Shown: positions 23,866 to 42,500 of the stretch, piece by piece
Layout: each line of letters starts with the position of its first letter
Position numbering within the stretch: the stretch's first letter is position 1
Assembly: GCA_029781115.1 (NCBI GenBank)
Contig: JAKOXG010000005.1
Location: forward strand, 1-64,000
Origin: Candidatus Cloacimonadota bacterium
GTDB lineage: Bacteria; Cloacimonadota; Cloacimonadia; Cloacimonadales; Cloacimonadaceae
DNA length: 64,000 bases
Direction of reading: 5' to 3'
Made by a program: the position numbers and the translations under genes
Notes under the pieces: model-generated
Databases searched by the model: none
Told to the model about the DNA's origin: nothing
Seen by the model: the letters and a program-made list of their open reading frames with translations, nothing else

Positions 23866-26043
23866 TTACTGCATCAGCATCATCTTGCGGGTTTGGCTAT
23901 GTTTGCCTGTTTCCAGGCGGTAGAAATAGATGCCGCTGGTCACGCTGTCTCCGTTGTCATCCTTGCCGTCCCACACCACCCTGTGGTCGCCACCGGCTTT
24001 GGGTTCATTTACCAAAGTGCGCACCAATTGGCCTCTGAGGTTGTAGATGCCCAGTTTGGCATCACCGGCTGCGGGCATGGTGTAGCTGATGGTGGTTTCG
24101 GGATTGAAGGGATTGGGGAAGTTTCCCTTGAGAATGCCTATCCCCGGTGCTGAGGCCAGAGATTCGTCTGCATCTCCGGCAGGCTCAAAGGCGATGGTCA
24201 GCTCCATAAACATGACTTCTCCACCATCATTGTTGTCGTGGTAGGGGGGATAAAGCTCGTATGAACCCCAAGTGTTATCATCATAAAACATAAGTCCCAC
24301 CTTCCCCATGTGATAGTCTCTGCCCTCTTTGGGATTGTGGGCTACACCTGCATAAACGACCTCATCCACGGGATATACCCACATGGGAGTGAGATCAGCA
24401 AGTTGGGGAACATCCAGGCTGTTGAGGCAGATGGGGTCTTTCCAGGTCATTCCGTTGTTGGGACTTACAGCGATCATGATATCGGGTGAAAATCCAGCAC
24501 CAGGGTCATCTGACTGGTCGTAGAGCATGGCCCGATTACAATCTTGCCACACCATCACCGTCCAGCTATGCTGGTTTGGTTTGCTCATCTTGATATTGTT
24601 ATAATGAGCCATCATAGAGCTTTCATGGGCAGTCCTGTCCCAATGGCAAAAAGGCCACATGGCATTGATGTCCAGATGCCATTCTCCATCTACCTGGATA
24701 TACTCTGCCTCTCCCCAGGGCGGTTCGTTATCCCACGGATGGTAACACTCATAATCAGCGGTGTTATCAGGGTGCTTGATGGGATATACCTCATGAATGC
24801 TGACTTCGTTTGTGGCGGGATCAAAGATAAGCTGCTTCACATACTGCATGTTTGGATAGTATGATGTATCGGATGAAAGTGCCCAGAGGGCGGGGAAATG
24901 GATCCTTCCACTGCGATCGACAACGGCATTCACATGGCTGGAATTTTGGATCGCCCAGTAAAGATCGCCCGGTTCGTAGGGGTTGCCATCCTCGTCATAG
25001 AAGTGGGGTTCAACCCAGGGAGGTCCTTCCGGAATCCAGGCAGGGATATGGCCGGATGCGGTCATCATCGTCCAAGTGCCTTCGCCAAAGTTGTCACACT
25101 TCATCACATGCACATCAGGTTCGTCAAATGGGTTGCCATCCAGGTCACGGGAGTCATGATAACCAATATAGTAGATATTTCCTGCATCATCAGCGCAGAA
25201 GGTGGTAAATGGTCTGCGCCAGTTTTCCGTGTCTACATTCCAGAGGTCAAAGGTGGGCACAGAGGTGTAGTTCCAGACGGCCGGGATGCCTTCCTCTATC
25301 ATGTCTCCATCAATATCCGCATAGGCGATCAAGACGTTTTCACTGGGAAAGTTGTTGGGAACGTGACTTCTGGAGTTGCGCGTAGCCACATAGACACGGC
25401 GCTTGCCGGCTATCGGTGAGGGACCGATCGTGGCTGTGGGCCAGATAAACTGGTTATCGCCGGTGACTACCCCGTTGGGAGCAGTGATCTGGGTGGGGTT
25501 GTCTACAATCGTCTGGTAATTGGTAAACAGACCGGGGAAATCATCCATAAATGCATCTGCGACAAACACCACTTCTTGCTTGCCATCATGATCCACATCC
25601 GTGTGCCAGGCATACATGGGCTTGCCACTCACGGGATCAATAGTCATGGTGGGATAACCCTCAGTGGCGCTACTGTCAGATATTTCGCTGTTGGATATGA
25701 CGAACCCCGACTGATCCAGATAAGTGTAGTAGACTTTCCTGGTGCTGTCGGGAGCGCAGCGTCCTTGATAAACCATGAAATATCCGCCGCCGAATTCACC
25801 GGGGATCGCCCTCAGGGGCAAGCCGTTGTAACTTCCGATCATGTAGTCGTAAAAGCTGGTCATGATGGATATTGGTTCGCTGGAGAAATAGTAGTAAGGC
25901 GCATACTGCGAGGTCGCTCTGACTGTGGATTGGGGTATATCAATAAAGACAGGTTTTTTAGCCTGCGCCGGTGCCTGAATCTCCGCATACGCAAAGCTTA
26001 GCACCACGAGCAGGGCTATCGTGCTTAAAGCAATCTTTCTCAT
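23866..26043 (-). CDS. Secreted beta-propeller-like protein with C-terminal sorting domain (paralogue 2)
   Basis: A 725-residue paralogue of the neighbouring 722-residue protein, sharing its order of motifs throughout. Signal peptide MRKIALSTIALLVVLSFAYA. There is an Asp-box-like SPNNGMTW about residue 555, and the sorting domain NPFNPETTISYTMPAAGDA...KMMLMQ fills the last 80 residues. Predicted to be exported and anchored or released by a type IX-like route; the activity is unknown. The ribosome-binding site is GAGGAGGTGG. Its sigma-54-like promoter lies 134 nt upstream, only 13 bp past the end of the radical SAM gene. Confidence 0.85.
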   Translation of the reverse strand: MRKIALSTIALLVVLSFAYAEIQAPAQAKKPVFIDIPQSTVRATSQYAPYYYFSSEPISIMTSFYDYMIGSYNGLPLRAIPGEFGGGYFMVYQGRCAPDSTRKVYYTYLDQSGFVISNSEISDSSATEGYPTMTIDPVSGKPMYAWHTDVDHDGKQEVVFVADAFMDDFPGLFTNYQTIVDNPTQITAPNGVVTGDNQFIWPTATIGPSPIAGKRRVYVATRNSRSHVPNNFPSENVLIAYADIDGDMIEEGIPAVWNYTSVPTFDLWNVDTENWRRPFTTFCADDAGNIYYIGYHDSRDLDGNPFDEPDVHVMKCDNFGEGTWTMMTASGHIPAWIPEGPPWVEPHFYDEDGNPYEPGDLYWAIQNSSHVNAVVDRSGRIHFPALWALSSDTSYYPNMQYVKQLIFDPATNEVSIHEVYPIKHPDNTADYECYHPWDNEPPWGEAEYIQVDGEWHLDINAMWPFCHWDRTAHESSMMAHYNNIKMSKPNQHSWTVMVWQDCNRAMLYDQSDDPGAGFSPDIMIAVSPNNGMTWKDPICLNSLDVPQLADLTPMWVYPVDEVVYAGVAHNPKEGRDYHMGKVGLMFYDDNTWGSYELYPPYHDNNDGGEVMFMELTIAFEPAGDADESLASAPGIGILKGNFPNPFNPETTISYTMPAAGDAKLGIYNLRGQLVRTLVNEPKAGGDHRVVWDGKDDNGDSVTSGIYFYRLETGKHSQTRKMMLMQ

Positions 26044-26205: not shown

Positions 26206-27609
26206 TTATTGGTTTCTGAGTGTGCTTTTGTAGAAGTCCTTTCTCAAAACGTAGGTTTCAAAGAGGGATTTGGCACTGCTGAAGATGATCCTGGGCTCCA
26301 AGGATTTGCTCTTGATGGCTTGGATAAAGAGGGGGATCAATTCGCGCCGCTTGGCCCAGTAGATCTTGAGGTAAGCTTTGGGCAAATACGCTTCCATCTG
26401 CTTGTAGGTCATGCCCAAGGGGTTGTAGACGCAGTGGGTGATGTCGTAATCCTCCCAATTGTAGTGCCGGATGCGGTTTTCGCGCTTGAGTCTGTCATAT
26501 ACGGCGGTGCCCGGGAAAGGTGTCATGACGGAGACGAGGATGAGACCGGGGAGCTTGCTGGCGAACTTGATGTTCTTTTCGATGATCTCGGGGGTGTCAA
26601 ATTCATCGCCACTGCCGAGGATAAAGAAGAAGCTGTAGCTGATGCCCAGGTTCTTCAGGATGCTCACGGCTTTCATGATCTGATCGGTGCTGATCCTTTT
26701 ATTGAGGCTTTCCAACACCTCCGGCACACCGCTCTCGATGCCGAATCCCATCAGGGTGCAGCCACAAGCAGCCAATCTGGCCACCAGCTCGGGCTTTCTG
26801 ATGACCATGTCTATTCTGGTCATGCAGGCGAAGGTAAACTTTAGCTTTTCCTCTTCCACCAAGTCACAGAAACGGGTGATCCAATCGGCATTGGTGGTGA
26901 AATTGTCGTCATGAATCCAGAACTGGTCGTATCCCCAAGAGATAAAGTCCTTGATTTCCCCGATCACGTCTTCCACTCTGCGTTGGCGGAAACTGCCACC
27001 ATAAAAAGCGGAGATGGAGCAATAGGAACACTTGAAAGGACAGCCCCTGCTGGAGACTATCTTGGGCGTGAAGCTGAACTCCGGGGCTACCAAGTCCATG
27101 GTGATCTTGGGAATGGAGTTGATGTCTTTGAGTAACACGATCTCTTCATCGTTGTAAAACTCACCGTCTTTCAGGTAAGCCATGCCGGTGATGGCGGGAT
27201 AGCGGTCTTTTGCTTCCAGAGCCTTGACAAGGGCGACAAAGGTCTCCTCTCCCTCACCGCGACAAACGAAGTCTACGCCTGTCTCTTGCAGGGTTTCCTT
27301 GTACATGAAGGTCACGTGGTGACCGCCGATCACGGTGATGATCTCGGGATGATGCTCTTTTACATAGCGAATCATTTCTCCGGCCAGGGGATAGACCGCC
27401 GTTACAGCGGTAAAGCCGATCACATCGGGTTTGTATCTGCGGATATAGCGGTGCAGGGTGTTGACATCTGCCTGAACCACTACAGACCTGTAGCCCGCAT
27501 CCCTGACTGCGGCAGCCACATACAAGACTCCCTGAAATATCTGGTGCCCTTTGCGCGTCCTCTGCAGGCCACCGGCGGTAGCCTTTGGCGAAACAAATAG
27601 AACTGTCAT
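26206..27609 (-). CDS. B12-binding radical SAM protein (paralogue 1)
   Basis: A 467-residue class B (BchE-like) radical SAM enzyme. Residues 1-130 are the cobalamin-binding-like Rossmann region (PDVIGFTAVTAVYP, VIGGHHVTF). The radical SAM cluster ligands are Cys190, Cys194 and Cys197 (GCPFKCSYC). A helical tail ends YVLRKDFYKS. An ATG at 27609 is preferred over one at 27687: AAGGAAGG lies 8 nt upstream and the N-terminus (MTVLFVSPKAT) then aligns with the adjacent paralogue (MTILLVSPTAT). It probably performs a radical modification or methylation of a lipid, cofactor or polyketide-like substrate; the substrate is unknown. Its own sigma-54-like motif lies 136 nt upstream. Confidence 0.88.
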   Translation of the reverse strand: MTVLFVSPKATAGGLQRTRKGHQIFQGVLYVAAAVRDAGYRSVVVQADVNTLHRYIRRYKPDVIGFTAVTAVYPLAGEMIRYVKEHHPEIITVIGGHHVTFMYKETLQETGVDFVCRGEGEETFVALVKALEAKDRYPAITGMAYLKDGEFYNDEEIVLLKDINSIPKITMDLVAPEFSFTPKIVSSRGCPFKCSYCSISAFYGGSFRQRRVEDVIGEIKDFISWGYDQFWIHDDNFTTNADWITRFCDLVEEEKLKFTFACMTRIDMVIRKPELVARLAACGCTLMGFGIESGVPEVLESLNKRISTDQIMKAVSILKNLGISYSFFFILGSGDEFDTPEIIEKNIKFASKLPGLILVSVMTPFPGTAVYDRLKRENRIRHYNWEDYDITHCVYNPLGMTYKQMEAYLPKAYLKIYWAKRRELIPLFIQAIKSKSLEPRIIFSSAKSLFETYVLRKDFYKSTLRNQ

Positions 27610-27745
27610 TGTGAAACCTTCCTTTTTACTCAACTGGCGAAGGAAACAGGATTCCGTGCCGATTTTTACTTGAAAGATATGCGCCAATGATTATCATCAA
27701 GACCATTACGTTCTCAATGTAGCCTTGGCTTGTGGGCACAGTGTA

Positions 27746-27772: not shown

Positions 27773-29176
27773 TTATTTGGTTTTACGTATGCTCTTGTAG
27801 AAATCCTTTCTCAAAACATAGGTTTGAAACAGGGATTTGGCGCTGCCCAAGATCATTCCCGGTTCGATGGATTTGGTTTTTAGCGCCTTGATGAAGAGTG
27901 AGGGTAATTCCCGCCATTTGGCCAAGTATATCTTCATATAGGCTTTGGGCAGATAGGATTCCATCTGTTTGTAGGTCATGCCCAGGGGATTGTAGACGCA
28001 GTGCGTGATGTCGTAATCTTCCCAATTGTAGTGGCGGATGCGGTTTTCACGCTTCAGTTTTTCATACACGGCTGTGCCCGGGAAAGGCGTGAGGATGGAG
28101 GCAAGGACGAGCCCGGGGAGCTTGCTGAAAAACTTGATGTTCTTGTCCATGATCTCGGGGGTGTCAAACTCATCACCGCTGCCCAGGAGCATGAAGAAGG
28201 TGTAGCTGATGCCCTGTTTCTTCAGGATATTCACCGCCTTCAAGATCTGGGGGATGCTGAGCTTTTTGTTGATGCTTTCCAACACCTCCGGCACGCCGCT
28301 TTCGATGCCGATGCTCATCATGGTGCAGCCGCATTTGCCCAGTCTTTCCACCAGCTCGGGTGATCGCTCGATGAAGTTGATCCGGCTCATGCAGCTGAAG
28401 GTAAACTTCAGCTCTTCCTGCTCGACCAGATCGCAGAAGCGCGTGAGCCAGGCGGCGTCTGTGGTGAAGTTGTCGTCATGAATCCAAAACTGGGTGTAGC
28501 CCCAGGAGATGTAATCCTTGATGTCTGCGATCACGTCTTCCACTCTGCGCTGACGGTATTTGCCGCCATAGAAGGCGGAGATGGAGCAGTAGGAACACTT
28601 GAAGGGGCAGCCCCTGCTGGAGACTATCTTGGGCGTGAAAGTGGATTCCGGCGCCACCAAATCCATGGTGATGCGCGGGATTTTGTTGATGTCTTCCAGC
28701 AGCACTATCCTTTCGTCGTTGTAAAACTCGCCGTCCTTCATGTAGACCATGCCGGTGATGGCGGGATAGCGGTCTTTGGCTTCCAGAGCAGAAAGGAGGG
28801 CGGCGAAGGTCTCTTCACCCTCGCCGCGACAAACAAAATCCACACCTGTCTCTTGCAGGGTTTCCTTGTACATGAAGGTCACATGGTGGCCGCCAACCAC
28901 GGTGATGATCTCGGGGTGCTTTTCCTTTACATAGCGGATCATCTCGCTCACCAAAGGGTACACGGCTGTCACGCAGGTGAAGCCGATCACGTCGGGTATA
29001 TAGCGGCGGATGTAGCGGTGCAGGTTGTTGACATCAGCCTGAACCACTACGGCTCTATGGCCTGCATCCCTCGCTGCGGCGGCTATATACAAGATTCCCT
29101 GAAACACTTGATGCCCTCTGCGCATCATTTCCAAGCCACCGGTGGTAGCTGTGGGAGAAACAAGTAGGATCGTCAT
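27773..29176 (-). CDS. B12-binding radical SAM protein (paralogue 2)
   Basis: A 467-residue tandem paralogue of the gene at 26206, nearly collinear, with the same RGCPFKCSYC cluster motif and the same C-terminal YVLRKDFYKS segment. It begins 8 bp after the stop of the 946-residue DUF6754-like gene (an AAGG overlaps that stop), so it is read as part of the DUF6754 operon, whereas its twin has a separate promoter. The substrate is unknown. Placement in the operon suggests it may modify a component handled by the membrane cluster, which is inference. Confidence 0.88.
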   Translation of the reverse strand: MTILLVSPTATTGGLEMMRRGHQVFQGILYIAAAARDAGHRAVVVQADVNNLHRYIRRYIPDVIGFTCVTAVYPLVSEMIRYVKEKHPEIITVVGGHHVTFMYKETLQETGVDFVCRGEGEETFAALLSALEAKDRYPAITGMVYMKDGEFYNDERIVLLEDINKIPRITMDLVAPESTFTPKIVSSRGCPFKCSYCSISAFYGGKYRQRRVEDVIADIKDYISWGYTQFWIHDDNFTTDAAWLTRFCDLVEQEELKFTFSCMSRINFIERSPELVERLGKCGCTMMSIGIESGVPEVLESINKKLSIPQILKAVNILKKQGISYTFFMLLGSGDEFDTPEIMDKNIKFFSKLPGLVLASILTPFPGTAVYEKLKRENRIRHYNWEDYDITHCVYNPLGMTYKQMESYLPKAYMKIYLAKWRELPSLFIKALKTKSIEPGMILGSAKSLFQTYVLRKDFYKSIRKTK

Positions 29177-29184
29177 ATTATGCC

Positions 29185-32025
29185 TTATTCAAATGGCAGG
29201 AAGTGCAGCAGCTCGTGCCAGTGGGCGGTTGAAAGGAAGGTGCCGATGATGATCAGGAAGATCATCACGATCTTGAAGTAGTCCTGCCCTTTGAGCATAC
29301 TCACCAGCTCGATATTGCGGGAGAGATAAGCGCTGGCGGCATAAAACTCTTCGCCGATCAGTGTATAGTCACAGGTGGTGATGAAGAAAGGAACCTGCGT
29401 GATGGCGTCTGTGCCAGCGATTTGGATGGAGCCCATCTGGTTTCCGGTCTCGGTCATGAGCAGGGCTTCGGCGTTGAAGTAGCCCATGTAGAGCACGGTT
29501 GCGGCTCGTTCACGGATGATGATGCCGTTTACACCTGCGGCAAAGGCAAATTGCGAATCCGAGATGTAGAAGATGTCTTCACGGTTGAAGGCATCCGGTC
29601 TGCCGGCCTCGTTGTAGGCAGTCTGCACTATCTCCTGCGCCAGCGGCATCACAAAATAGTCCACGTGCGGCGAGATGAGGCGGACGTCAAACTCGGCCGT
29701 CTTCTTCGCCGTTTCACTGAGGATCATCAGCGCACTGATGGTGCAGGGATCACCCAGGCCGCCCCAGCCGGGCACAAACATCACGGGTCTGCCCATCTCG
29801 GTGGCACGTCCCACAGCGTTGTCCAGCTCCTCCAAACCTGCGATGGGGCGGATGTAGAGCTCCCTGCGGCGGGCTTGCACCAAGGCAACGACAATCATGA
29901 TGCCAAAAGTGAGGCTGCCGATGAGGGTGGCCAATTTGGTCTTGTCAAACCATTGCGGCTCGGGGAAGAACCACTGGTTGCCCTTGGGATCTTTGTAGGT
30001 GTCTGTCTGTTGGATGAGACCGTGACCGTCGGTGAGCAAAAGCTGATAGGCGTAGGTGCGGGAGTTGCGGTGCATCTCTGCCAGCAGTATCTTGCGCCAT
30101 GCCTTCTCGCTGCGTGCTTTTTGGGCTTGCTTGTAGGCGGGATGGTTGATGATAAAGTTGTAGCTATCCTGAGCTTGGGTAGCCTCGGCTTGACTGCTCA
30201 GATAGGCTTCGCTGAGCGTATCTCCGGTAGCCTGCATACCCTTCACCAGCTTGCTGAGGCTGTCGGCCTCCGCCTTCATCTCCCTCAAGTCTTTCTCAAA
30301 TACGCCGCGATAGATGTTGCCAGCAAAGCTGAGCATCTTGTCTTCGTCAAAGGCAACTGTAAAAGCCGGGCTTAGCAGCAGTCTGCGGCTCTTGGCATCG
30401 TAGTTTGAGATGGGTTTATAGAGTGCATCAGGGTAGTTGATGGCGTGATCCAAGGCGCGGATCATACCGTTAGAGCGCATGCCGGGACTGAAATAGGGGC
30501 TGAGCTTGTTTTTGATCAGCACATCCATGTAGACGCGGTCGAGACGCTTGCCGGCGATGCTCAGATGCTTGCCCAGATACCTGTGCGTAGCTTCCTCAAA
30601 CAGGATATCCTGATGTGCGGCAGGCTCTTCATATTTGCCCTTGTTTTTGCGCAACATCACCTGCGTCTCCACCTTGAAGCTCTTGCCGTGCGCAAAGTCT
30701 TTGGGCAGCTTCATCGAGATCACCTTATCCGGATAATACTCCGTGATCTGAGCTATCTCTTTGCCGCCTTCCTCCCTGAAGGTAAAGCGCAGACGCTCAA
30801 TCGGATACAGGTCGTTCTCAAGCAGCTCATAGGTAAACTTGAGCTTGTTGTGCTTGGCTGAAGTGTAAGAGGCCTGCGTGATGTAGGCGATGGGCTTGCC
30901 CATGGAGAGGTAGTTGTTGTCTCCCTTGTCATTGGGCTTGTCCTGAACGCTGAAGGCGGGAAGATTGGGATACTCAGCGGAGTTTCTGATGTAGAGTGTA
31001 TCTGCGATAGAGGCGTTTTGATACTCGGAATAATCCATGTAACTCAGCACGGGCAGATAGTCTGAGGCAGGACGGCTGAGGCTGATGCCTGCTTCTTTGA
31101 GATCCACCTTTTCATAGAGCGTCTTGGAGCCTGAAGTCACATAGGAATCAAAGACCTTGATCGCTCTTTCTTGCCAAGCGGCGTGGAACTGCTCGTCTGC
31201 CGCAGTGAGGTTGAGCTCCTGCTCTGATCTGAAGAGTGGCACCGACTCCTTGGGGAGCAGCCAACCGCTGTAGAGAGCGATGTCATAGCCCACTTCAGGC
31301 ATATTCCACTCAAAGCCAAGCTCCTGCGTATCTTCCACGTAGGTGGCGTTGACCACTGCATCGGGCGCAGGACGGTTGTCCACCGGGATGGCGGAGACTA
31401 TCTTGGCGGCGGGCAGGTGGTGTCCGCGCTCATTCACCGCCACCACGCTGTAATAGTATTCATTGCCAACTTTGGGGTTGGCCAAGATGAGGTCAAACTG
31501 GTTGAGCTTGTAGCCGGCATAGCTTTCTTTATCCAGCTTCACCTGCTTGGATTGATGGTAAAACACGCTGTGCTTGATGGAACCCAGCATGTCATAGCGA
31601 TCGACAAGCGAGCCGATCACCTTCGGGTCGCGGGGTACGGCTCGATACAGCGGGCTGTCGGCAGGCTGGTGCTTTTCCTTCTTCAGCTTTGCGGGTGCGG
31701 TTTCAAACTCATACAGCGGTTGATAATCCGAATCGGTAAAGCGGAGCTCATCACCGATCACACCCATAGTGGGGTCTACATCCAGATTGCTGAGGAAGAA
31801 GAGGGTATCCGGGCTGCAACCCCGATAGATCTTATACTGGATAATGCGATGCTCTTTGCTGAGTGGTGTCCATTTCAACACTATACCTGAGCCATCGTCA
31901 AAGGGGGCATCCATGGCGATCAAACCGGTCACCTGACCCTGTTTTGCCACCTCCGGTGAGGAGGCGGAAAACAGGATCAAGCTTCCCAGAAGAACCATGG
32001 CCGTGAACAGGCTATATTTCTTCAT
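29185..32025 (-). CDS. DUF6754-like membrane protein with fn3 domains (paralogue 2)
   Basis: A 946-residue protein: signal sequence (MKKYSLFTAMVLLGSLILFSA), fn3-like domains (about 35-260), a long extracytoplasmic region with a coiled coil near 580-620, and a membrane segment about 680-702. A conserved C-terminal domain (IAGLEELDNAVGRATEMGRP, TETGN, IAGTDAITQVPFF, CDYTLIGEEFYAASAYLSR) follows, then a last membrane segment about 915-935. The C-terminal domain looks like DUF6754 (recalled, not searched). It is paralogous to the 956-residue product at the head of the operon. The function is not known. Confidence 0.8.
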   Translation of the reverse strand: MKKYSLFTAMVLLGSLILFSASSPEVAKQGQVTGLIAMDAPFDDGSGIVLKWTPLSKEHRIIQYKIYRGCSPDTLFFLSNLDVDPTMGVIGDELRFTDSDYQPLYEFETAPAKLKKEKHQPADSPLYRAVPRDPKVIGSLVDRYDMLGSIKHSVFYHQSKQVKLDKESYAGYKLNQFDLILANPKVGNEYYYSVVAVNERGHHLPAAKIVSAIPVDNRPAPDAVVNATYVEDTQELGFEWNMPEVGYDIALYSGWLLPKESVPLFRSEQELNLTAADEQFHAAWQERAIKVFDSYVTSGSKTLYEKVDLKEAGISLSRPASDYLPVLSYMDYSEYQNASIADTLYIRNSAEYPNLPAFSVQDKPNDKGDNNYLSMGKPIAYITQASYTSAKHNKLKFTYELLENDLYPIERLRFTFREEGGKEIAQITEYYPDKVISMKLPKDFAHGKSFKVETQVMLRKNKGKYEEPAAHQDILFEEATHRYLGKHLSIAGKRLDRVYMDVLIKNKLSPYFSPGMRSNGMIRALDHAINYPDALYKPISNYDAKSRRLLLSPAFTVAFDEDKMLSFAGNIYRGVFEKDLREMKAEADSLSKLVKGMQATGDTLSEAYLSSQAEATQAQDSYNFIINHPAYKQAQKARSEKAWRKILLAEMHRNSRTYAYQLLLTDGHGLIQQTDTYKDPKGNQWFFPEPQWFDKTKLATLIGSLTFGIMIVVALVQARRRELYIRPIAGLEELDNAVGRATEMGRPVMFVPGWGGLGDPCTISALMILSETAKKTAEFDVRLISPHVDYFVMPLAQEIVQTAYNEAGRPDAFNREDIFYISDSQFAFAAGVNGIIIRERAATVLYMGYFNAEALLMTETGNQMGSIQIAGTDAITQVPFFITTCDYTLIGEEFYAASAYLSRNIELVSMLKGQDYFKIVMIFLIIIGTFLSTAHWHELLHFLPFE

Positions 32026-32089
32026 TGGTCATTCCATATATAGTCGCCCGACAAAGCGAGCTATGGCAGGACGGCTATGCTATAAGGTT

Positions 32090-32692
32090 TTAGAATATCT
32101 TGGCGAAGACATCGTTGACCAGGAACTGGATACGTCCGATCAACAATGAGATACGAGCCATCACGGTGAGTCCGAAGGAGGCACCAAAGCCCACCATCAT
32201 AAACCACTTTCCGATCGACACAAACTTGCCATAGACGCCGGTGTGTGCTTTGGAGAAGAAGAAGTAGAGCAACACGGTGACTGTGCCCAGGAAGATCAGG
32301 AAGAGGTTGAGGTTTTCGATTGGCACCATCGCCTGACGCATCTGCACCAGGATAAGGCTGTGCATAGCCAAGGCCACGCTGGCACCTGCTCCCATCATGG
32401 AAAAGGCGATCGGGTAGCGGCTCAACCAGCTCAGTTTGCGGCTGAAGCGGAAGAGGTAGAAAGCACCGATGATAGCCGGAATGATGAGGATAAACTCGTG
32501 CTTGAGTATGATGGGCTGCCAAAAGAAGGGGATGAACACACGTTCGTAGGAGAGCACCAGGCTGTAGCCCAGTGAAATACCCACCAAGAGCTGTTCAGAC
32601 ATCTGATAGAGGGGGTTGTCCTTGTAAAGGAAGGAGAAGATAGCCAGGGTGAAGAAAGCACCCACTAAGTTACTGAATAGTTCAAATGACAT
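32090..32692 (-). CDS. Polytopic membrane protein of the DUF6754 cluster
   Basis: A 200-residue integral membrane protein with about five or six hydrophobic segments (FFTLAIFSFLY, LLVGISLGYSLVL, FILIIPAIIGAFYLF, FLIFLGTVTVLLYFFF, MMVGFGASFGLTV). It has no recognised domain. It begins 12 bp after the 396-residue gene and is followed after 64 bp by the 946-residue paralogue. The position between the two DUF6754-like paralogues suggests a subunit of the same complex; this is inferred from order alone. Confidence 0.75.
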   Translation of the reverse strand: MSFELFSNLVGAFFTLAIFSFLYKDNPLYQMSEQLLVGISLGYSLVLSYERVFIPFFWQPIILKHEFILIIPAIIGAFYLFRFSRKLSWLSRYPIAFSMMGAGASVALAMHSLILVQMRQAMVPIENLNLFLIFLGTVTVLLYFFFSKAHTGVYGKFVSIGKWFMMVGFGASFGLTVMARISLLIGRIQFLVNDVFAKIF

Positions 32693-32704
32693 TTTTAACC
32701 TCCT

Positions 32705-33895
32705 TTACTGCTGCTTTGCCTGGCGGGCTTTTTGGATGAAGTAACCGATATTACCCAGGATAATGAACACGATGATCATGATATGGGCCACGGATTGAGC
32801 GTTCATGCCGATGCGCGCTACTTTAAACTTATAAGGAATGTTGTAGGTGAGGCGGTTGAGATCGTTGAAAGCCACATAGCCCAGCTCATCCTTTTGAGCT
32901 TCTGTGACCTTGGTGACGTCGATCACAACCTTGCCATCTTTCTCTTCTTTGAGACCATCAAAGATGTCCTGTTTTTCAGGATGTTTCGCTACAAACTGTT
33001 GATATTCTGCAGGCGTGAATTTAGCCGTATTCTGAGTGGTGATATTGAGGTATTTCTGGATAGACTCATCCCTCAGGATATCGCTGCTGAAGGAGCGTCC
33101 GTGCGGGATCTTGTTGCCATCTTCGTCTACGCCCAGATCCAGCGGAGTGCCGGGTTCGCGGTAGGCACCAAAGACGTCGGTGAGCTTTTCATATTCAGCC
33201 GCACCCTTGAGCCCGGAAAGCATGCCGATAAACTGTCCGGTTTGCAGGTAGGGATACATGTCTGCAGCCATCACGGCGGTCACGCCCACGGCGATGTTGA
33301 GACCAAACTTGGGTCTGGCATAATAGAGCCACATTCCACCGGCGGAGCTACCGGAAAACTCGATCACCAAGTTCAATTCGCTGTAGTTGGTCAGACCTTT
33401 CATGATCTCCAGGTTTTCCAGCTTGCGTCCTTCGGCGTCCGTCTTCACTGCGGCGGCGATGTTGTCTCCCATACCCAAAATGGTAGGCATGGCCAAGGTG
33501 CCGGGAATGTAGCCAAAGTTACAGTAGTCCACGCCGGATTTGATGTTTGGATACTCTTCTTTCACGGTATTGATGGCGTAGTCGATGATGGGACCTGCGG
33601 AAGGCAGCCAGGTGAGCGTAAAGACCTTGATATTGCGCTCAAAGCAGTGCCTCAGGATGGCCACTTCCATGGGGAAGAGCTCCGGCATCGTGGAGGCATC
33701 GTGGTAGAAGCTCAGCAGGATGGCTCTATCCGGCCTGCCGGCAAAGCTGTCGATAAACTGATACAGGTTTTCTGTAGGTGGCGAGGTGACGTTGTCTGAA
33801 TTGAAGGGGAAAGCCAGAGGCAGGGCGATGGCCAGAGCCACCACGATGTAGATCCAACGGCGATCCAACTTTTGAATGCGTTCAAAGAAATTCAT
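32705..33895 (-). CDS. Bitopic extracytoplasmic protein of the DUF6754 cluster
   Basis: A 396-residue protein anchored at both ends: a membrane segment about 14-31 and another about 366-386, with a large domain between. That domain starts with an alpha/beta-looking stretch (RAILLSFYHDAS, NIKVFTLTWLPSAG) and includes a glycine-rich piece (EFSGSSAGGMW). No catalytic motif was recognised. It begins 12 bp after the 208-residue gene. The function is unknown; a scaffold or sensor facing outward is possible. Confidence 0.75.
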   Translation of the reverse strand: MNFFERIQKLDRRWIYIVVALAIALPLAFPFNSDNVTSPPTENLYQFIDSFAGRPDRAILLSFYHDASTMPELFPMEVAILRHCFERNIKVFTLTWLPSAGPIIDYAINTVKEEYPNIKSGVDYCNFGYIPGTLAMPTILGMGDNIAAAVKTDAEGRKLENLEIMKGLTNYSELNLVIEFSGSSAGGMWLYYARPKFGLNIAVGVTAVMAADMYPYLQTGQFIGMLSGLKGAAEYEKLTDVFGAYREPGTPLDLGVDEDGNKIPHGRSFSSDILRDESIQKYLNITTQNTAKFTPAEYQQFVAKHPEKQDIFDGLKEEKDGKVVIDVTKVTEAQKDELGYVAFNDLNRLTYNIPYKFKVARIGMNAQSVAHIMIIVFIILGNIGYFIQKARQAKQQ

Positions 33896-33907
33896 TGCAT
33901 GCCTCCA

Positions 33908-34534
33908 TTAATCTCCGCCCAAGTAAGAGCGTTCGATACCTAACATAATCTTGAGGGTGGTAGCCACCGAGCCCAATCCCACGCCCAGCATGATGCCGCG
34001 CTTGGCTGCCAGGTTTGGGACGTCCAAGATCCACTGTGAGATGGCGGGCAGGTATTTGGAAATCTTCACTCCGATCGGCACCTGTGCCAGCATCACCACG
34101 ATAGCAGCAGCGAGCAGCACAGTAGCTTCAGCGGAGCGCGCCCTGAAGGCTTTATAGGCTGCAGAAGCCATATAAAAAGCCAACAGCGAAAACATGGTGG
34201 CACTCATGGGCATAGCCATGTTTTCAAACATCCACATGTAGAGGCCACCCTTTTGCGTGCCTCCGATGAATCCGGCAAGTGAGGTGGCGATAAAACCTGC
34301 AAAGAAGAAGTAACTGTATTGCCATTTGGGTGCACGCCGCTTGATCTTGGCGGTGTGCATCATGGAAAGGCTAAACACACCCAGGATGATGGCAAAGGGT
34401 GCCATCGCCCTTGCCCAGGGCATGTAGAACTTATAGTAAAAATCGTCGGCCATGACTCTATGGGGTATAAACACCCAGAGGAGCCACACTATTCCTCCGG
34501 CGATGACGATGATGAGTGGTATTGTCTTTTTCAT
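33908..34534 (-). CDS. Polytopic membrane protein of the DUF6754 cluster
   Basis: A 208-residue integral membrane protein with about six hydrophobic segments, starting at residue 4 (IPLIIVIAGGIVWLLWVFI). It includes a conserved-looking MMHTAKIKRRAPKW cytoplasmic loop and a GFIGGTQKGG turn. No known family was recognised. It lies 16 bp after the 956-residue gene and 12 bp before the 396-residue gene. Confidence 0.75.
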   Translation of the reverse strand: MKKTIPLIIVIAGGIVWLLWVFIPHRVMADDFYYKFYMPWARAMAPFAIILGVFSLSMMHTAKIKRRAPKWQYSYFFFAGFIATSLAGFIGGTQKGGLYMWMFENMAMPMSATMFSLLAFYMASAAYKAFRARSAEATVLLAAAIVVMLAQVPIGVKISKYLPAISQWILDVPNLAAKRGIMLGVGLGSVATTLKIMLGIERSYLGGD

Positions 34535-34550
34535 AATGATTGATCCTCTA

Positions 34551-37421
34551 TTACTTGGTAGGGAGAATATTCAGTAGAGTCATTACCTGGAAGCTGGAGA
34601 GCAGGGAGCCCACAAGCACCAAGAACACGATAATGATCTTGAAATAGTCCTGAGCCTTCAAGGTGCCCAGCAGCATGGGTTCACGGTTCAGATAAGCACC
34701 GGCGGCGTAAAGCTCTTCGCCGATCAATGTATAGTCACATGTGGTGATGAAGAAGGGAATCTGAGTCACGGAGTCTGTGCCGGCGATCTGCACTGCACCC
34801 ACCGTGTTTCCGGTCTCGGTCATCAGCAACGCTTCCGCCGAGAAGTAGCCCAGGAAGAAGTTGGTCGCCATCTTTTCACGGATCATGATTCCATTCACGG
34901 CAGCCACATAGGCAAATTGGGAGTTGGTAAGGTAGAAGATGTTGTTTTTGTCGTAGGTATCGGGTCTGCCCACGCTGTAGTGGGATTCTCTCACGATTTC
35001 CTGCACGATGGGCAGCACGATGTAGTCATAACACGGCACGATCATCTTGGTATCATATTCTGCCGCTTTTCTGGCCACCTGAGAGATGATGCTCATAGAG
35101 GCAAGTGTCGCCACGTCTGAAAGGCCACCATGACCCATACAATAGAGCATCGGGCGTCCCATCTCGGTGGCGCGGCCCACGGCGTTGTCTATCTCATCCA
35201 ATCCCGCAATGGGGCGGACGTAGAGCTTTCTACCACTCTTGGCCATAGTCACAAAGGCCACTACCAAAGCACCGTAGACAATCACGGCGATCAGCGTCAC
35301 AAACTTATCCGTGGCAAACCAGTTGGAGATGGGGAAGTAGAAGTTTGGCTCTTCCTTTTCGTTGAGGTCCAGATCCCCTTCGGTATACAAGCCCCTGGTA
35401 TCCGTCTTCACCACGCGGTAGTTGTGCTGACGGCTTTCCGGCTCTCTGATCTTGGCGATGAAGGCCGTCCAGGCGCGCTGGCCTTTGCGCTTCAAGGCTT
35501 CGATCACGTTCTCGTTTGTATCATAGAGCTTCACTTGCTTTTCCAGTGCATCCACCTTGGCCTGCAGTTGAGGTTTGAGGCTATCTGATGCGGCAGCCAC
35601 CTGTCCTTTGAGCTCGGCCAGCTCTTTCTTGCTTTCATCCATCTGCTTGAGGGCTTCGTCTCTGAAGATATTGAGGCTGATGCGGGTGTCGTTTTCCACA
35701 TCGTAGGTAAAGTCTATCTCAGGCGAGACGAGCGCATAAGCGCTTCTGGATTCGCCAGGTTTGAGCTTTCTCACAAAGCGTTTGCCATTCATGTAGGTAT
35801 GCAGGTCGATGCCTTTGACAAAGCTGAAGCCATAGACGCCCCGGCCCACCGTGGAGGGGTAAGGAACGTTGACGTCCAGGTTGTTGTCAAAGCAGGTGTT
35901 GTTTTTCAAGGTCATATACATGGGCGAGCTGATGCCGCGTCTGTAGACCACGTTTTGGATCTTGGACACTTCCACGCCATTGCGCCAGAGCTCTTTGGTG
36001 GGCATTAAGGTCATCATGCCTTCATCCCAAACGAGTTCCTGCTCCAAGGCATAGGACTTGCGGTCTACCTTCTTGCCTTCCATGGTGATGCGCACCCTGA
36101 AGCCCTTGCGGTAATCATAATCCTTGGGCACGTTGATGTTGAAGCTCATATCCTGATAAAACTCTTTTATCGTGGCAAATGGCTTGCTCTCACCCAGCTT
36201 GGTAAATTCAAAATAGAGGTTTTTCACATCCTGAGTGTCGGTCTTATTGAGCTGATAGTTTACCTTCAGCCTGGTGTTTTCCCGATCCAGCGATGAAGTC
36301 TTGGTGATGAAGACGATCGGGTGATCCCAGATCACGCAGAGGCGGTCTCCCTTGTCGTTGGGCTTGTCTTCCACGTAGAAGGTGGGCTTTTCAGGCAGAT
36401 AGCTGCTGTCCAGCATCCTGGGTGTTGATATGGCAGAGAAGGCGGTGCCTTCACGGTTCATCAGCTCGATCACAAACTGCGCATTTTCCGGGATGCCATC
36501 CGGCATGGGCACCGTCTTATAGGCCGGCAGTGCACCACCGCCCACGGGGCCTGCCGTAACGGGACGCAGGTAGGCGCTGCGCTGCTCAGGATTGTCTTTC
36601 ACGCTCTCCCAAGCTTCCGCACCGATGCCGCTTACCAAGTAGATCTGATACTGCAGGATGTTGTCCTTGATCGTGGGATATTCCCACTCAAAGCGCAACT
36701 CCTTGGTATCGCTGAGCCACACGCTATGAAGCGCAGCTGCCGCTTCCGGCGCATTGGCCACCGGGCTGCCGGAAACCACAGGCGCAGGATCCTGGAATCT
36801 GCTGCGCTCATCCACCGCAACCACGCTGTAATAGTAAGTGTTACCGGGTGCCAGCGAAGCAAACAAACTCTGATGCTTGAATTTGAAGCCGGCATAGGCG
36901 GTGCTGTCAGCCTCATCGGCAGAATAGACCTTTTGGCCCTTCTTGTAGAAGGCGCTCCTATCCACCGAGGAAAAGATGCTGAAATTCTCAGACAACCTGG
37001 CTGCAAGCTCCATATCTCGCGGAATCCGGCGATACAGGGGGCTGCCCGGCTTCTGCTGCTTCTCTTGCCTCAGCTTGCCCGGCGAGGTGAGATCGATAAA
37101 CTCTCCATAACCGCTATCATAAAAATACATCCTGTCACCGGCAAAACCTGTCTTTGGGTTCACCGGCACAGCCTGAGTAAAAAACAGGGTATCGGGATGA
37201 ACACCGCGGTAAACGCGATATTCAATGATGCGTTTGGAGCGGTGCAAAGGCTTCCAGCTCACGATCAAGCCGGAACCATCATCGGATGGCAGGTCCTCAA
37301 CCTTGAGGTCATCCACCACATTTCGCCCTGAAGCCGGGTCTTTGCTCGCTATGCTCAACCCGAGGGCTACTGCAAAAGCAAGCAATAACGTCAACTTCAG
37401 CAGTCGATTAGACAGTCTCAT
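34551..37421 (-). CDS. DUF6754-like membrane protein with fn3 domains (paralogue 1, operon head)
   Basis: A 956-residue protein with a signal sequence (LTLLLAFAVALGLSIA), fn3-like domains (about 40-310; GSGLIVSWKPLHRSKRIIEYRVYRG), a long outer region, and a coiled coil about 610-660 (MDESKKELAELKG). A membrane segment lies about 700-720, then the DUF6754-like domain (IAGLDEIDNAVGRATEMGRP, SVTQIPFFITTCDYTLIGEELYAAGAYLNR) and a final membrane segment. Same plan as the 946-residue paralogue five genes on. It heads an operon of this gene, three small membrane proteins, the paralogue and a radical SAM gene. Its start follows TGGAG. Confidence 0.8.
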   Translation of the reverse strand: MRLSNRLLKLTLLLAFAVALGLSIASKDPASGRNVVDDLKVEDLPSDDGSGLIVSWKPLHRSKRIIEYRVYRGVHPDTLFFTQAVPVNPKTGFAGDRMYFYDSGYGEFIDLTSPGKLRQEKQQKPGSPLYRRIPRDMELAARLSENFSIFSSVDRSAFYKKGQKVYSADEADSTAYAGFKFKHQSLFASLAPGNTYYYSVVAVDERSRFQDPAPVVSGSPVANAPEAAAALHSVWLSDTKELRFEWEYPTIKDNILQYQIYLVSGIGAEAWESVKDNPEQRSAYLRPVTAGPVGGGALPAYKTVPMPDGIPENAQFVIELMNREGTAFSAISTPRMLDSSYLPEKPTFYVEDKPNDKGDRLCVIWDHPIVFITKTSSLDRENTRLKVNYQLNKTDTQDVKNLYFEFTKLGESKPFATIKEFYQDMSFNINVPKDYDYRKGFRVRITMEGKKVDRKSYALEQELVWDEGMMTLMPTKELWRNGVEVSKIQNVVYRRGISSPMYMTLKNNTCFDNNLDVNVPYPSTVGRGVYGFSFVKGIDLHTYMNGKRFVRKLKPGESRSAYALVSPEIDFTYDVENDTRISLNIFRDEALKQMDESKKELAELKGQVAAASDSLKPQLQAKVDALEKQVKLYDTNENVIEALKRKGQRAWTAFIAKIREPESRQHNYRVVKTDTRGLYTEGDLDLNEKEEPNFYFPISNWFATDKFVTLIAVIVYGALVVAFVTMAKSGRKLYVRPIAGLDEIDNAVGRATEMGRPMLYCMGHGGLSDVATLASMSIISQVARKAAEYDTKMIVPCYDYIVLPIVQEIVRESHYSVGRPDTYDKNNIFYLTNSQFAYVAAVNGIMIREKMATNFFLGYFSAEALLMTETGNTVGAVQIAGTDSVTQIPFFITTCDYTLIGEELYAAGAYLNREPMLLGTLKAQDYFKIIIVFLVLVGSLLSSFQVMTLLNILPTK

Positions 37422-37894: not shown

Positions 37895-38620
37895 ATGACT
37901 GGAGAAAGACTAAAAGCCGTAAGAAAAAAGCTCGGGCTCAACCAACAAGACTTCGGCTCGGCATTGAAGATCAACGCTTCCGCTATCTCACAGATGGAAA
38001 ACAACCGCATCAAACCGTCTCTGGACACACTTCTGCTCTTGAGCAAACACTTCAGGGTAGACCTGCACTGGCTGATCACCGGCAAAGGCGACATGTTTAT
38101 GGACACTGAAGAAAAACGCACCAACGATGCCAACCGCAGCCTCAACAAACTCAAGGCCTTCATCAACGATGAACTCCTGAACATCGTCAAGGTAAAGGAA
38201 AGCAACATCAACGCCGAAGCCTTTGACCTGCCCGTGATGGGCGAAATCGCCGCCGGACCCGCCGTCGAGACCAACGACGCCGTCCTGGATGTCGTCAGCA
38301 TCAGACGCAGCATGCTCAAAGGCAACATCACCGAATATGTCTGCCTCAGAGTCAATGGCCACAGCATGGAACCCGATATCCACAACAACGACGTCGTCAT
38401 CATCCGCAAAAGCAACGACTGGGAACGCCTCCAAGGACGTATCTGCGCCGTGCGCATCGATGGCAGCATCACTCTCAAAAAACTTAGCATGGATGACAAA
38501 CGCAAGCTCATCATCCTGCTGCCCATCAATGAAAGCTTTGCCCCCATCGTGATCGACCCTGACGACCACGAAGACCTCGGCATGATCGGCTATTTGCACT
38601 ATCTCTACAGAAAGCTGTAA
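37895..38620 (+). CDS. LexA/CI-type repressor: XRE helix-turn-helix plus S24 self-cleavage domain
   Basis: A 241-residue cytoplasmic regulator. Residues about 4-62 are a Cro/CI-type helix-turn-helix (LNQQDFGSALKINASAISQMENNRIKPS). Residues about 112-235 are a peptidase S24/LexA domain: cleavage site Ala120-Gly121 (EIAAGPA), nucleophile Ser157 (NGHSMEPD) and general base Lys195 (ITLKKL), 38 residues apart as in LexA (37). All parts needed for RecA-stimulated self-cleavage are present, but the DNA-binding domain is CI-like, not the winged helix of LexA. The ribosome-binding site is AAGGAGG. It is monocistronic with its own operator and terminator; no phage genes are near. It may control an SOS-like or stress regulon. 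Confidence 0.9.
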   Translation: MTGERLKAVRKKLGLNQQDFGSALKINASAISQMENNRIKPSLDTLLLLSKHFRVDLHWLITGKGDMFMDTEEKRTNDANRSLNKLKAFINDELLNIVKVKESNINAEAFDLPVMGEIAAGPAVETNDAVLDVVSIRRSMLKGNITEYVCLRVNGHSMEPDIHNNDVVIIRKSNDWERLQGRICAVRIDGSITLKKLSMDDKRKLIILLPINESFAPIVIDPDDHEDLGMIGYLHYLYRKL

Positions 38621-39564: not shown

Positions 39565-42500
39565 ATGAAAAGTCGTTTTGCATTTATCCTGCTGCTGGCC
39601 CTGATGCTGAGCGTCTTCAGTATCGGCAATGCAGCAACCGTGCAGATTGGCAGTGGAAGCGGGTCTACCGGATACCTTCCGTTATCTGGCTCATACGCCT
39701 ACAGTTACACTCAGCAAATCTATACCCAAGAACAGGTCAACTGTGCCGGAACCATCACCAAAATCCGCTTCTATTACGTTTCAGGCACGATCGACAACAA
39801 CAAGGATTTGACCATCTACTTGGGACACACGCAGAAAGATACTTTTTCCAGCACCGGCGATTGGGTTGTTTATTCAGACCTCACGCAGGTATTCAGCGGC
39901 GATGTGTCGTCTCTGATGCCTGCATCGACCTACGCCTGGATGGAGATCACGCTTTCTACTCCCTTTGCCTACAACAACATCGACAACCTGGTGCTTGCAG
40001 TTGATGAAAACACCCCTGACAGTGGAAATATGAGCTGGGGTGCCTTTACCAGCGGGAGCAGCACCGGTATCTACTATCGGGACAATACCACCAATCCTGA
40101 TCCCAGCAATCCACCTTATGCAAATGGAAGGACAAACATCATTAACCGCATCCAATTGGAGATCACAGCCACCGCAGCACCTCTGGCCCCCACACTTGTA
40201 TCCCCTGCAGATGGTGCTTATGCTTTTGATACCCACAGTCTGAGCTGGGCTTCGACGGTTGGAAGTGCCGGTGTGACCGGCTATGACGTCTACCTTGACG
40301 GCAACCTCGTAAGCAGCAACCAGACAGAGACCTCCTATCCACTCAGCCCCACGAAGGGACTGGGACAGCACACTTGGTATGTGGTGGCGCGCAACGAGCT
40401 TGGTGCTTCACCTGCGTCTGAGACCCGGACTTTTGAGCTTGTAGAGCCGGTGTTCATCGGCAACCAGAGTTACCTCAGACAAACCCCTTTCAACGCTTAC
40501 AACAGCTATGGACGCTCCCTGGCGCTCTATACCTCTGCTCAGATCGGGCAGGTGGGTCAAATCAGTGGCTTGGGTTGGTATGTATACACCCCCGGTCATG
40601 CCTCAATCCCTTACAAGGTATATATCAAACCCACCACCGCTGAAGAGGTTGCGCCCATGACCTGGAATGCTTTCACCGCGGAGGCTACTCTGGTGAAAGA
40701 AGGAAGCTACAGCTTCGACAGACAGGGCTGGCATACTTTAACACTGGATACGCCATTCACTTTCAGCGGTGACAACCTGCTCATCGGCGTGGAAGCCAAC
40801 TTTGGTGGCAATGGAGCCGGAAGCGGCGGCTATCCCAGCTTCTATCATTCTTCTTGCAGTGCAGGTTTACATCAATATTGGCATTCAAACAGTGCTCCTC
40901 CCACAGGTGACGGAACCCCGATCACATATTTGCCCAACCTGGCAGTGATCATGGCACCTGTTGCTGCTGAGCCCTCGTTTGTGCTCAGCCCCACAGAGTG
41001 GAATTACGGCCCCACGATCATCACCATCACAAGCTCGCGAACCTTCAGCGTGGGTAATGTGGGCGATGGAACTCTCAATATCACCGGCATCAGCCCCATA
41101 TCCGACGGGTTTTTCACCCTTGTGGATGCGCCTGAATTCCCTGTGGCTTTGACCTTTGGACAAACGGCCTCCTTCACCATCAATTATACTCCCACCGCCG
41201 TTGGCAATCATAGCGGCACCTTCACCATCTCGCATGCAGATAGCACGGCAGATCTCACGGTGAGCGGCGAATGTTTTGATCCCACCATCCATAATTATCC
41301 CTACACGGAAGGCTTTGAAACGGGACAGGCGCACGACACACCCGTGCAAAATTGGCTGCAGATTCTGGATAATGGCAAGACTAACTATTGGATGGCCAAC
41401 TCCGGCTATAGTGACCAAAACCGTAGCCCACGCAGTGGTGAATTCAACGCTTTCCTGAAGTGGGACAGCAACGCCTGGCTGATAAAACCCTTCCAGATGC
41501 AGGCGGATCAATCCTACGACGTGGAAGTGTGGGCGAGACAAAGCGTGAGCACTCCCGCATATGCCAAACTGGCGCTGTACTACGGTACAGAAGGTTCCAT
41601 CGCCGCCATGACCAACACCATAGTTGCTCAAACCGGGATCGTCAGCGGAGATTACCAAAAGCTGAAAGGCAGCTTCACGCCTGCCGAAAGTGGAGTTTAC
41701 TGGATCGGCATCCATGGTCTGACCTCCAACTCAACCTGGTATATCAGCATCGATGACCTCTCGGTGCAGCACACACCGGTAAATCCTGTCTTTACCCACA
41801 CTCCTGATGCTATCGGCTTTGGCTCCATTTACGCCAATACAACCACAGAATATCAGGATATCACCGTGACCAACACCGCCGGCGGCACGCTGAATCTGAC
41901 TGCGGCGGACATCAGCATCACAGGCCCGGGTGCGGCGATGTTTGAGATCGATCCCACTGGCCTGCCTCTGGCTCTCACTGCCGACCAGAGTGGCGTCATC
42001 CCGGTGCGCTACAACCCCACTGTTACAGGCAAACACAACGCTACCCTGCAGATGGCTTTTGCAGGAACCAACCATGAGGTCGCCTTGAGCGGCAGGGCGG
42101 TGGACGAGAATGCCCTCTTTGAGAGCTTTGAGGACACCGAGTTCCCGCCGCCCGAGTGGCATGGCAACTGGAGCCGCAACACCAGCCAAGCTCAACACGG
42201 AAGCGCATCCGCCTATAAATACGGTCATTACCTCAACCAATATGTGCTCAGCACACCCATGCTCATTATTGAAGATGACAGCATGCTCGACTTCTGGGCT
42301 TGCTGCGCCAATAGTGCCGGCATCCTTCAGGTGGTATATTCTTCAGATAGAACCAACTGGATTCAGATTGGCGCTAACATCACCTTTGCCGAAAGCAATA
42401 CCTGGTACTATCACGAGATAGATCTCAGCTTCCTGAGCGGCACCAATTACTACCTCGGCCTGCGCACCGGTTTGGTCAGTTACTGTGCTTACTATGTGGA

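Follow-up and report, generated by a model that had tools for sequence, protein, structure and literature searches.

A conserved four-gene DUF6754 membrane module of Cloacimonadota and the ATPase gene set that accompanies it

DUF6754 (PF20539) is a Pfam family to which no function has been assigned, and the four-gene context in which we find it is not described there. PF13941, which together with NF040745 and TIGR01319 represents the GlmL/MutL family, is the other catalogued part of the system presented here; the system itself is not catalogued. No mention of DUF6754 or PF13941 was found in the literature searched. A DUF6754 system also goes unmentioned in the main text of a recent study covering the phylum Cloacimonadota (PMC13082233) and in that of a catalogue that compiles unknown genes of uncultivated taxa (PMC10849945). 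The gene cluster analysed here occupies positions 27773-37421 of the window, by which we mean the whole 64,000-nucleotide stretch of contig JAKOXG010000005.1 from a Candidatus Cloacimonadota bacterium. In a preliminary description of this DNA, it was presented as five closely spaced minus-strand genes, in which two large DUF6754-like proteins (A and E) bracket three membrane proteins (B, C and D), coupled to a radical SAM gene, and it was thought to encode an undescribed conserved membrane complex whose function cannot be named from motifs. The latter judgement was right, and the interpretation as a whole is partly supported. Beyond the view offered by the window, the same genome carries on other contigs a second complete module and genes for an ATPase, a barrel-sandwich protein and a small protein. 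On balance, we lean somewhat towards the view that the cluster, DUF6754-B-C-D with the duplicate E, encodes one membrane module of an ATPase-coupled inner-membrane system with seven components.

The conserved unit is a module of four genes, DUF6754-B-C-D, and not of five. DUF6754 was present in 122 of 125 Cloacimonadota genomes (69 of the 71 better ones), and a typical genome of the phylum has two modules, with a DUF6754 protein of about 950 residues in one and of about 370 in the other. In the genome of the window the modules lie on contigs C2 and C20, and the third DUF6754 gene, which is on a contig other than that of the window, belongs to the second complete module, a370-b232-c285-d212, arranged in the same order (locus L029). 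The genes of the compared loci were called with a simple longest-open-reading-frame script and many of the genomes are incomplete; the DUF6754-B-C-D order was intact in all unbroken neighbourhoods of the phylum. The separation of the genes in related genomes, which the preliminary description had proposed to look for, was thus seen in no intact neighbourhood. Outside the phylum, DUF6754 occurred in 43 of 165 genomes, about a quarter of those sampled, again as DUF6754-B-C-D and often as two or three tandem modules. A scan of GTDB representatives yielded at least 575 stretches encoding relatives, 80 of which were examined as loci. These are labelled Zixiibacteriota, WOR-3/Stahlbacteria, Coatesbacteria, Latescibacterota, Fermentibacteria, Aegiribacteria, Edwardsbacteria, Poribacteria, Eisenbacteria, Armatimonadota, TA06, UBP7, UBP2 and Cloacimonadota, L139 and L166 being among those of Armatimonadota, and in these 80 of the at least 575 loci, from at least 12 lineages, no departure from the A-B-C-D order was seen. 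Such conservation of gene order across phyla excludes chance as an explanation of the cluster, and gene systems whose order is kept across many phyla seldom still lack an assigned function. B, C, D and the DUF6754 domain are conserved, in contrast to the ectodomain of A, the size of which ranges from nearly none to about 680 residues; ectodomains clearly akin to the one in the window, of about 680 residues, were also found at L094 and L095, which represent two further lineages. In the most divergent members the full set is retained with a short A of 258-282 residues that has no ectodomain, and this short protein defines a minimal version of the system. A compact arrangement is seen in the LQBI01000035 operon (L111), where the six large genes, the ATPase and barrel-sandwich genes among them, follow one another directly.

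Three further proteins belong to the system and bring it to seven components: a GlmL/MutL-type ASKHA ATPase, a barrel-sandwich protein of about 376 residues and a protein of about 130 residues. The ATPase is about 620 residues long, matches PF13941 with an E-value of 1e-128 and contains the ASKHA-like motifs ATDCGSTTTKA, GVDIGGATTD and GSGGVLSHAP; by family match and by phosphate and adenosine motifs it is a member of the ASKHA ATPase superfamily, with a putative ability to hydrolyse ATP. The barrel-sandwich protein has a weak RnfC/biotinyl-like match, below the cut-off, in its N-terminal part and a weak likeness to KOW domains in its C-terminal part, and no family match was found for the protein of about 130 residues. 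In many lineages, the ATPase and barrel-sandwich genes lie directly upstream of the module or just after it, and they are co-directional with it, also in the most divergent loci (L179 and L180). At 28 loci, the gene of the small protein lies beside that of the ATPase or, in divergent members, beside the module. We searched for each partner in the same 290 genomes (125 of the phylum plus 165 others). Outside the phylum, the barrel-sandwich protein was found in 40 of the 43 genomes carrying DUF6754 (41 if one weak match is included) and in none of the other 122 (Fisher P 3e-35). The corresponding figures were 39 of 43 and 1 of 122 for the ATPase (Fisher P 4e-32); the small protein had the same counts as the ATPase.

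Several observations weigh against an ATPase-coupled system. Four genomes (G131, G154, G182 and G201) have DUF6754 and no detected ATPase, and G211, the one exception among the 122, has the ATPase and the small protein without DUF6754. The divergent A proteins that lack an ectodomain indicate that the core function does not depend on this part. Moreover, shared ancestry inflates the co-occurrence P-values, which overstate the strength of the association because the genomes are not independent. Finally, in Cloacimonadota the ATPase set does not adjoin the modules: in the genome of the window, the three partner genes (G000:C7:40754-41158, 41188-43032 and 43048-44172) lie away from both of them. 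This last arrangement, with modules on C2 and C20 and the ATPase set on C7, and the phylogenetic non-independence of the genomes would suit a stand-alone module, the ATPase, barrel-sandwich and small proteins being unrelated housekeeping genes that share its distribution by ancestry. We consider this explanation unlikely, since in many lineages, the most divergent loci included, the two sets lie next to each other and are read in the same direction, and since the pattern of absence is consistent too, as the barrel-sandwich figures for the negative genomes indicate. The recurrence of this adjacency in separate lineages is a stronger argument than the P-values.

In the window, the coordinates agree with the five minus-strand genes first described, in their lengths as in their spacing of 12-64 bp, the gaps from A through B, C, D and E to the radical SAM gene being 16, 12, 12, 64 and 8 bp. 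Gene A (34551-37421) encodes 956 residues, with a signal peptide, an ectodomain of about 680 residues, a transmembrane (TM) segment at 707-725, a DUF6754 domain predicted to be cytoplasmic and a second TM segment at 929-947. Gene E (29185-32025; 946 residues) encodes the second large DUF6754 protein, and hydropathy gave both proteins a signal peptide followed by a TM-domain-TM arrangement, which supports the common plan of outer part, membrane segment, conserved domain and membrane segment that had been proposed for them. Their DUF6754-like character was borne out by the Pfam profile, the curated cut-off of which is 27 bits: residues 699-951 of A (34569-35327) scored 381.1 bits (E-value 2.7e-114) and residues 689-940 of E (29206-29961) scored 367.6 bits (E-value 3.6e-110). 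Both matches span positions 2-255 of the 257 in the profile, and A and E carry the full domain. The two proteins are also paralogous, as had been stated, with 28% identity over about 675 residues of the ectodomains (E-value 4e-80) and 52% identity between the DUF6754 domains. The fn3 and coiled-coil labels given to the outer part are plausible only, because fn3 reached an E-value of 0.009 and 16.6 bits against a cut-off of 25, and the coiled-coil match (E-value 0.016) was also below its cut-off. Genes B (33908-34534; 208 residues) and D (32090-32692; 200 residues) encode polytopic membrane subunits with, by hydropathy, about four to six TM segments. Gene C (32705-33895; 396 residues) encodes a protein with TM segments at 15-33 and 369-387 and, between them, a Rossmann-like domain, predicted to be extracytoplasmic, in which a family-specific insertion is found at about residues 242-290. 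No match of B, C or D exceeded a curated cut-off in Pfam or NCBIfam; with the barrel-sandwich and small proteins, this makes five components without a family over such a cut-off, bar one weak biotinyl match.

AlphaFold2 models of the DUF6754 region and of C, built from 68-row alignments, had a mean predicted local distance difference test score of 90.3 and 86.2, respectively. Both showed a six-stranded alpha/beta (Rossmann-like) domain between two TM helices; the order of the six strand-helix units is the same in the two models, and motifs towards the end are similarly placed. We claim for them a similar topology alone, since profile comparison gave no support to the homology of the two domains; homology of B and D was likewise without support. 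Foldseek searches of the PDB with both models returned nothing at E<0.001, and the weak matches that recurred (molybdenum-cofactor carrier, SIS and RCK) indicate only a Rossmann-like fold. Sequence and profile searches of the PDB with DUF6754, C, the barrel-sandwich protein and the ATPase produced no useful match. The numerous invariant residues of DUF6754 cluster in post-strand loops (for example G-x-F-x-A-E, A-G-T and C-D-x-T-x-I-G-E-E), a pattern that would fit a ligand or active site. With regard to topology, lysine plus arginine counts around DUF6754 were 4.1 after the first TM segment versus 1.6 before it (n=200 A sequences), and those of C were 3.1 and 3.9 on the terminal sides versus 1.4 and 1.3 on the domain sides (n=175). 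According to these positive-inside counts, DUF6754 should be in the cytoplasm and the C domain should be extracytoplasmic.

Gene-order conservation, co-occurrence, confident folds and a charge-supported topology are the demonstrated part of this work, and from them we infer a mechanism. We propose, tentatively and as a possibility that falls somewhat short of probable, that the system is an inner-membrane machine of a new kind driven by an ASKHA ATPase, with one Rossmann-like domain, DUF6754, on the inner side of the membrane and another, that of C, on the outer side, present in at least a dozen lineages, most of them uncultured, and near-universal in Cloacimonadota. B and D, together with the TM helices of A and C, would make up the membrane core, and the cytoplasmic DUF6754 domain would be where the ATPase docks and would also be its ligand site; the barrel-sandwich protein, docking there too, would act as adaptor. 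Binding or hydrolysis of ATP could then cause a conformational change, which B and D would transmit to the ectodomain of A and to the extracytoplasmic domain of C, the two parts that would handle an envelope substrate. The task may be the moving or loading of a small molecule, a lipid or a glycan, and not bulk metabolic catalysis. The single set of ATPase, barrel-sandwich and small-protein genes on C7 would serve both modules of the cell, and the differing ectodomains of A might give each module a different target. If the system is ATP-driven, it would account for seven protein families together and would show a new way for a membrane complex to be coupled to an ASKHA ATPase. The variability of the A ectodomains against a conserved remainder, and the presence of several modules with one ATPase set per genome, would also be compatible with a sensory or signalling complex, in which the ectodomains sense the envelope and DUF6754 relays the signal to an ATPase switch. 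However, a recurring receiver, kinase or DNA-binding partner was not found among the neighbours, and two polytopic subunits would seem to exceed the needs of a relay; we regard a sensory role as improbable.

The bracketing by two paralogues is not supported as a general feature. Within the window's family, A and E flank B-C-D in all nine neighbourhoods examined, and similar second copies exist in families f6 and f10, which could suggest that an A/E hetero-oligomer, as had been proposed, is essential to the design. This is very unlikely, because E is missing from the larger part of both the order and the class, and also from other phyla, in which a module nearly always makes do with a single DUF6754 protein, and because E appears to be of late origin. 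When 200 DUF6754 domains were placed in a tree, the E proteins from the family of the window formed the sister group of that family's own A proteins, with a support of 0.77, and stood apart from the second copies of f6 and f10, and E is therefore probably a late duplicate of A, limited to part of the phylum. A joint complex of A and E would be at most a local elaboration.

Some loci and neighbours are recorded here as observations in their own right. The most divergent DUF6754 (29% identity) belongs to L098 (G184:C9), in a genome without an Omp85 match and with relatives of the ATPase and the barrel-sandwich protein, and possibly represents a monoderm version. Overall, Omp85 was found in 43 of 44 system-positive genomes and, in the control, in 75 of 80 negative ones, so that its distribution speaks neither for nor against a restriction of the system to genomes with Omp85. 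At L065 (4262-10748), a locus from another phylum, four C-like genes lie near a single DUF6754 and B gene, in an apparent local expansion of C. In WOR-3/Stahlbacteria (L101, L103, L106, L109 and L130), the module is followed by a fixed gene set which, by sequence appearance, comprises DUF4388-like, roadblock-like, two small membrane and ExbB/TolQ proteins. Genes for glycine cleavage (gcvT, gcvH, gcvPA/PB), for a PH-like membrane protein and for lipoate ligase are repeatedly found near the ATPase and module genes (L063, L086, L087, L093, L134 and others), and those for TonB-type receptors and ExbB-like proteins are repeatedly found downstream. We did not accept glycine cleavage (14 loci), TonB-type receptor (13) or ExbB-like (10) genes as components, since they are mostly confined to a few lineages. 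Downstream of the ATPase set of the window's genome (13369-18663 of L079, on G000:C7) there are two paralogous caspase-like/formylglycine-enzyme-like fusions, assigned by sequence only. In the window, a regulator with helix-turn-helix and S24-peptidase domains (LexA/CI-like; 37895-38620) is transcribed divergently upstream of A; a 241-residue gene in its position adjoins A in the nearest relative, L044, and not elsewhere. Just downstream of the cluster are two paralogous secreted proteins of about 720 residues (20995-23163 and 23866-26043) with C-terminal type IX-like sorting domains (Por_Secre_tail/FlgD_ig).

The radical SAM gene (27773-29176, minus strand; 467 residues) encodes a B12-binding, BchE-like protein, below the cut-off, and starts 8 bp after E as first noted. 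Its coupling to the cluster is not general, as it adjoins the latter in four of nine neighbourhoods of the family (the window, L012, L043 and L044) and is not beside it in L009, L010, L011, L013 and L014, and it is probably outside the core. A second B12-binding radical SAM gene lies in tandem with it (26206-27687); both are BchE-like and score under every named NCBIfam cut-off. Although the kinship of the ATPase with GlmL and the B12-binding gene next to E could point to a B12-linked system, in which a MutL-like reactivase of B12-dependent mutases has radical SAM B12 proteins as partners, this is highly improbable because glutamate mutase E (PF06368), the sole B12 enzyme surveyed, was over the cut-off in only 1 of 44 system genomes and not in that of the window, because the ATPase falls under the GlmL cut-offs and because most of the genera examined lack the radical SAM gene next to the cluster.

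Compared with known systems, the ATPase resembles GlmL (E-value 1e-64) but scores 218.6 bits against the NF040745 cut-off of 475 and 157 against the TIGR01319 cut-off of 204, and its length contrasts with the approximately 460 residues of GlmL. With such scores, and with glutamate mutase lacking in 43 of the 44 genomes, we rejected its identification as the known GlmL accessory protein. The N-terminal part of the barrel-sandwich protein recalls RnfC and NqrA (PF13375 and PF05896), with a best score of 23.6 bits against 25.6 for RnfC_N. An Rnf/Nqr complex is nevertheless ruled out by composition, since no relative of RnfA, RnfD, RnfE or RnfG was found among B, C and D over the Pfam and NCBIfam cut-offs. 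An anti-phage defence system was also discarded, PADLOC-DB having no match for the seven proteins. Energy-coupling factor (ECF) transporters are an example of one energising unit that works with several membrane modules. The system described here differs from them in that its ATPase is of the ASKHA and not of the ATP-binding cassette type, and no sequence relation was found; the likeness is one of plan, with one ATPase set and two or more membrane modules per genome.

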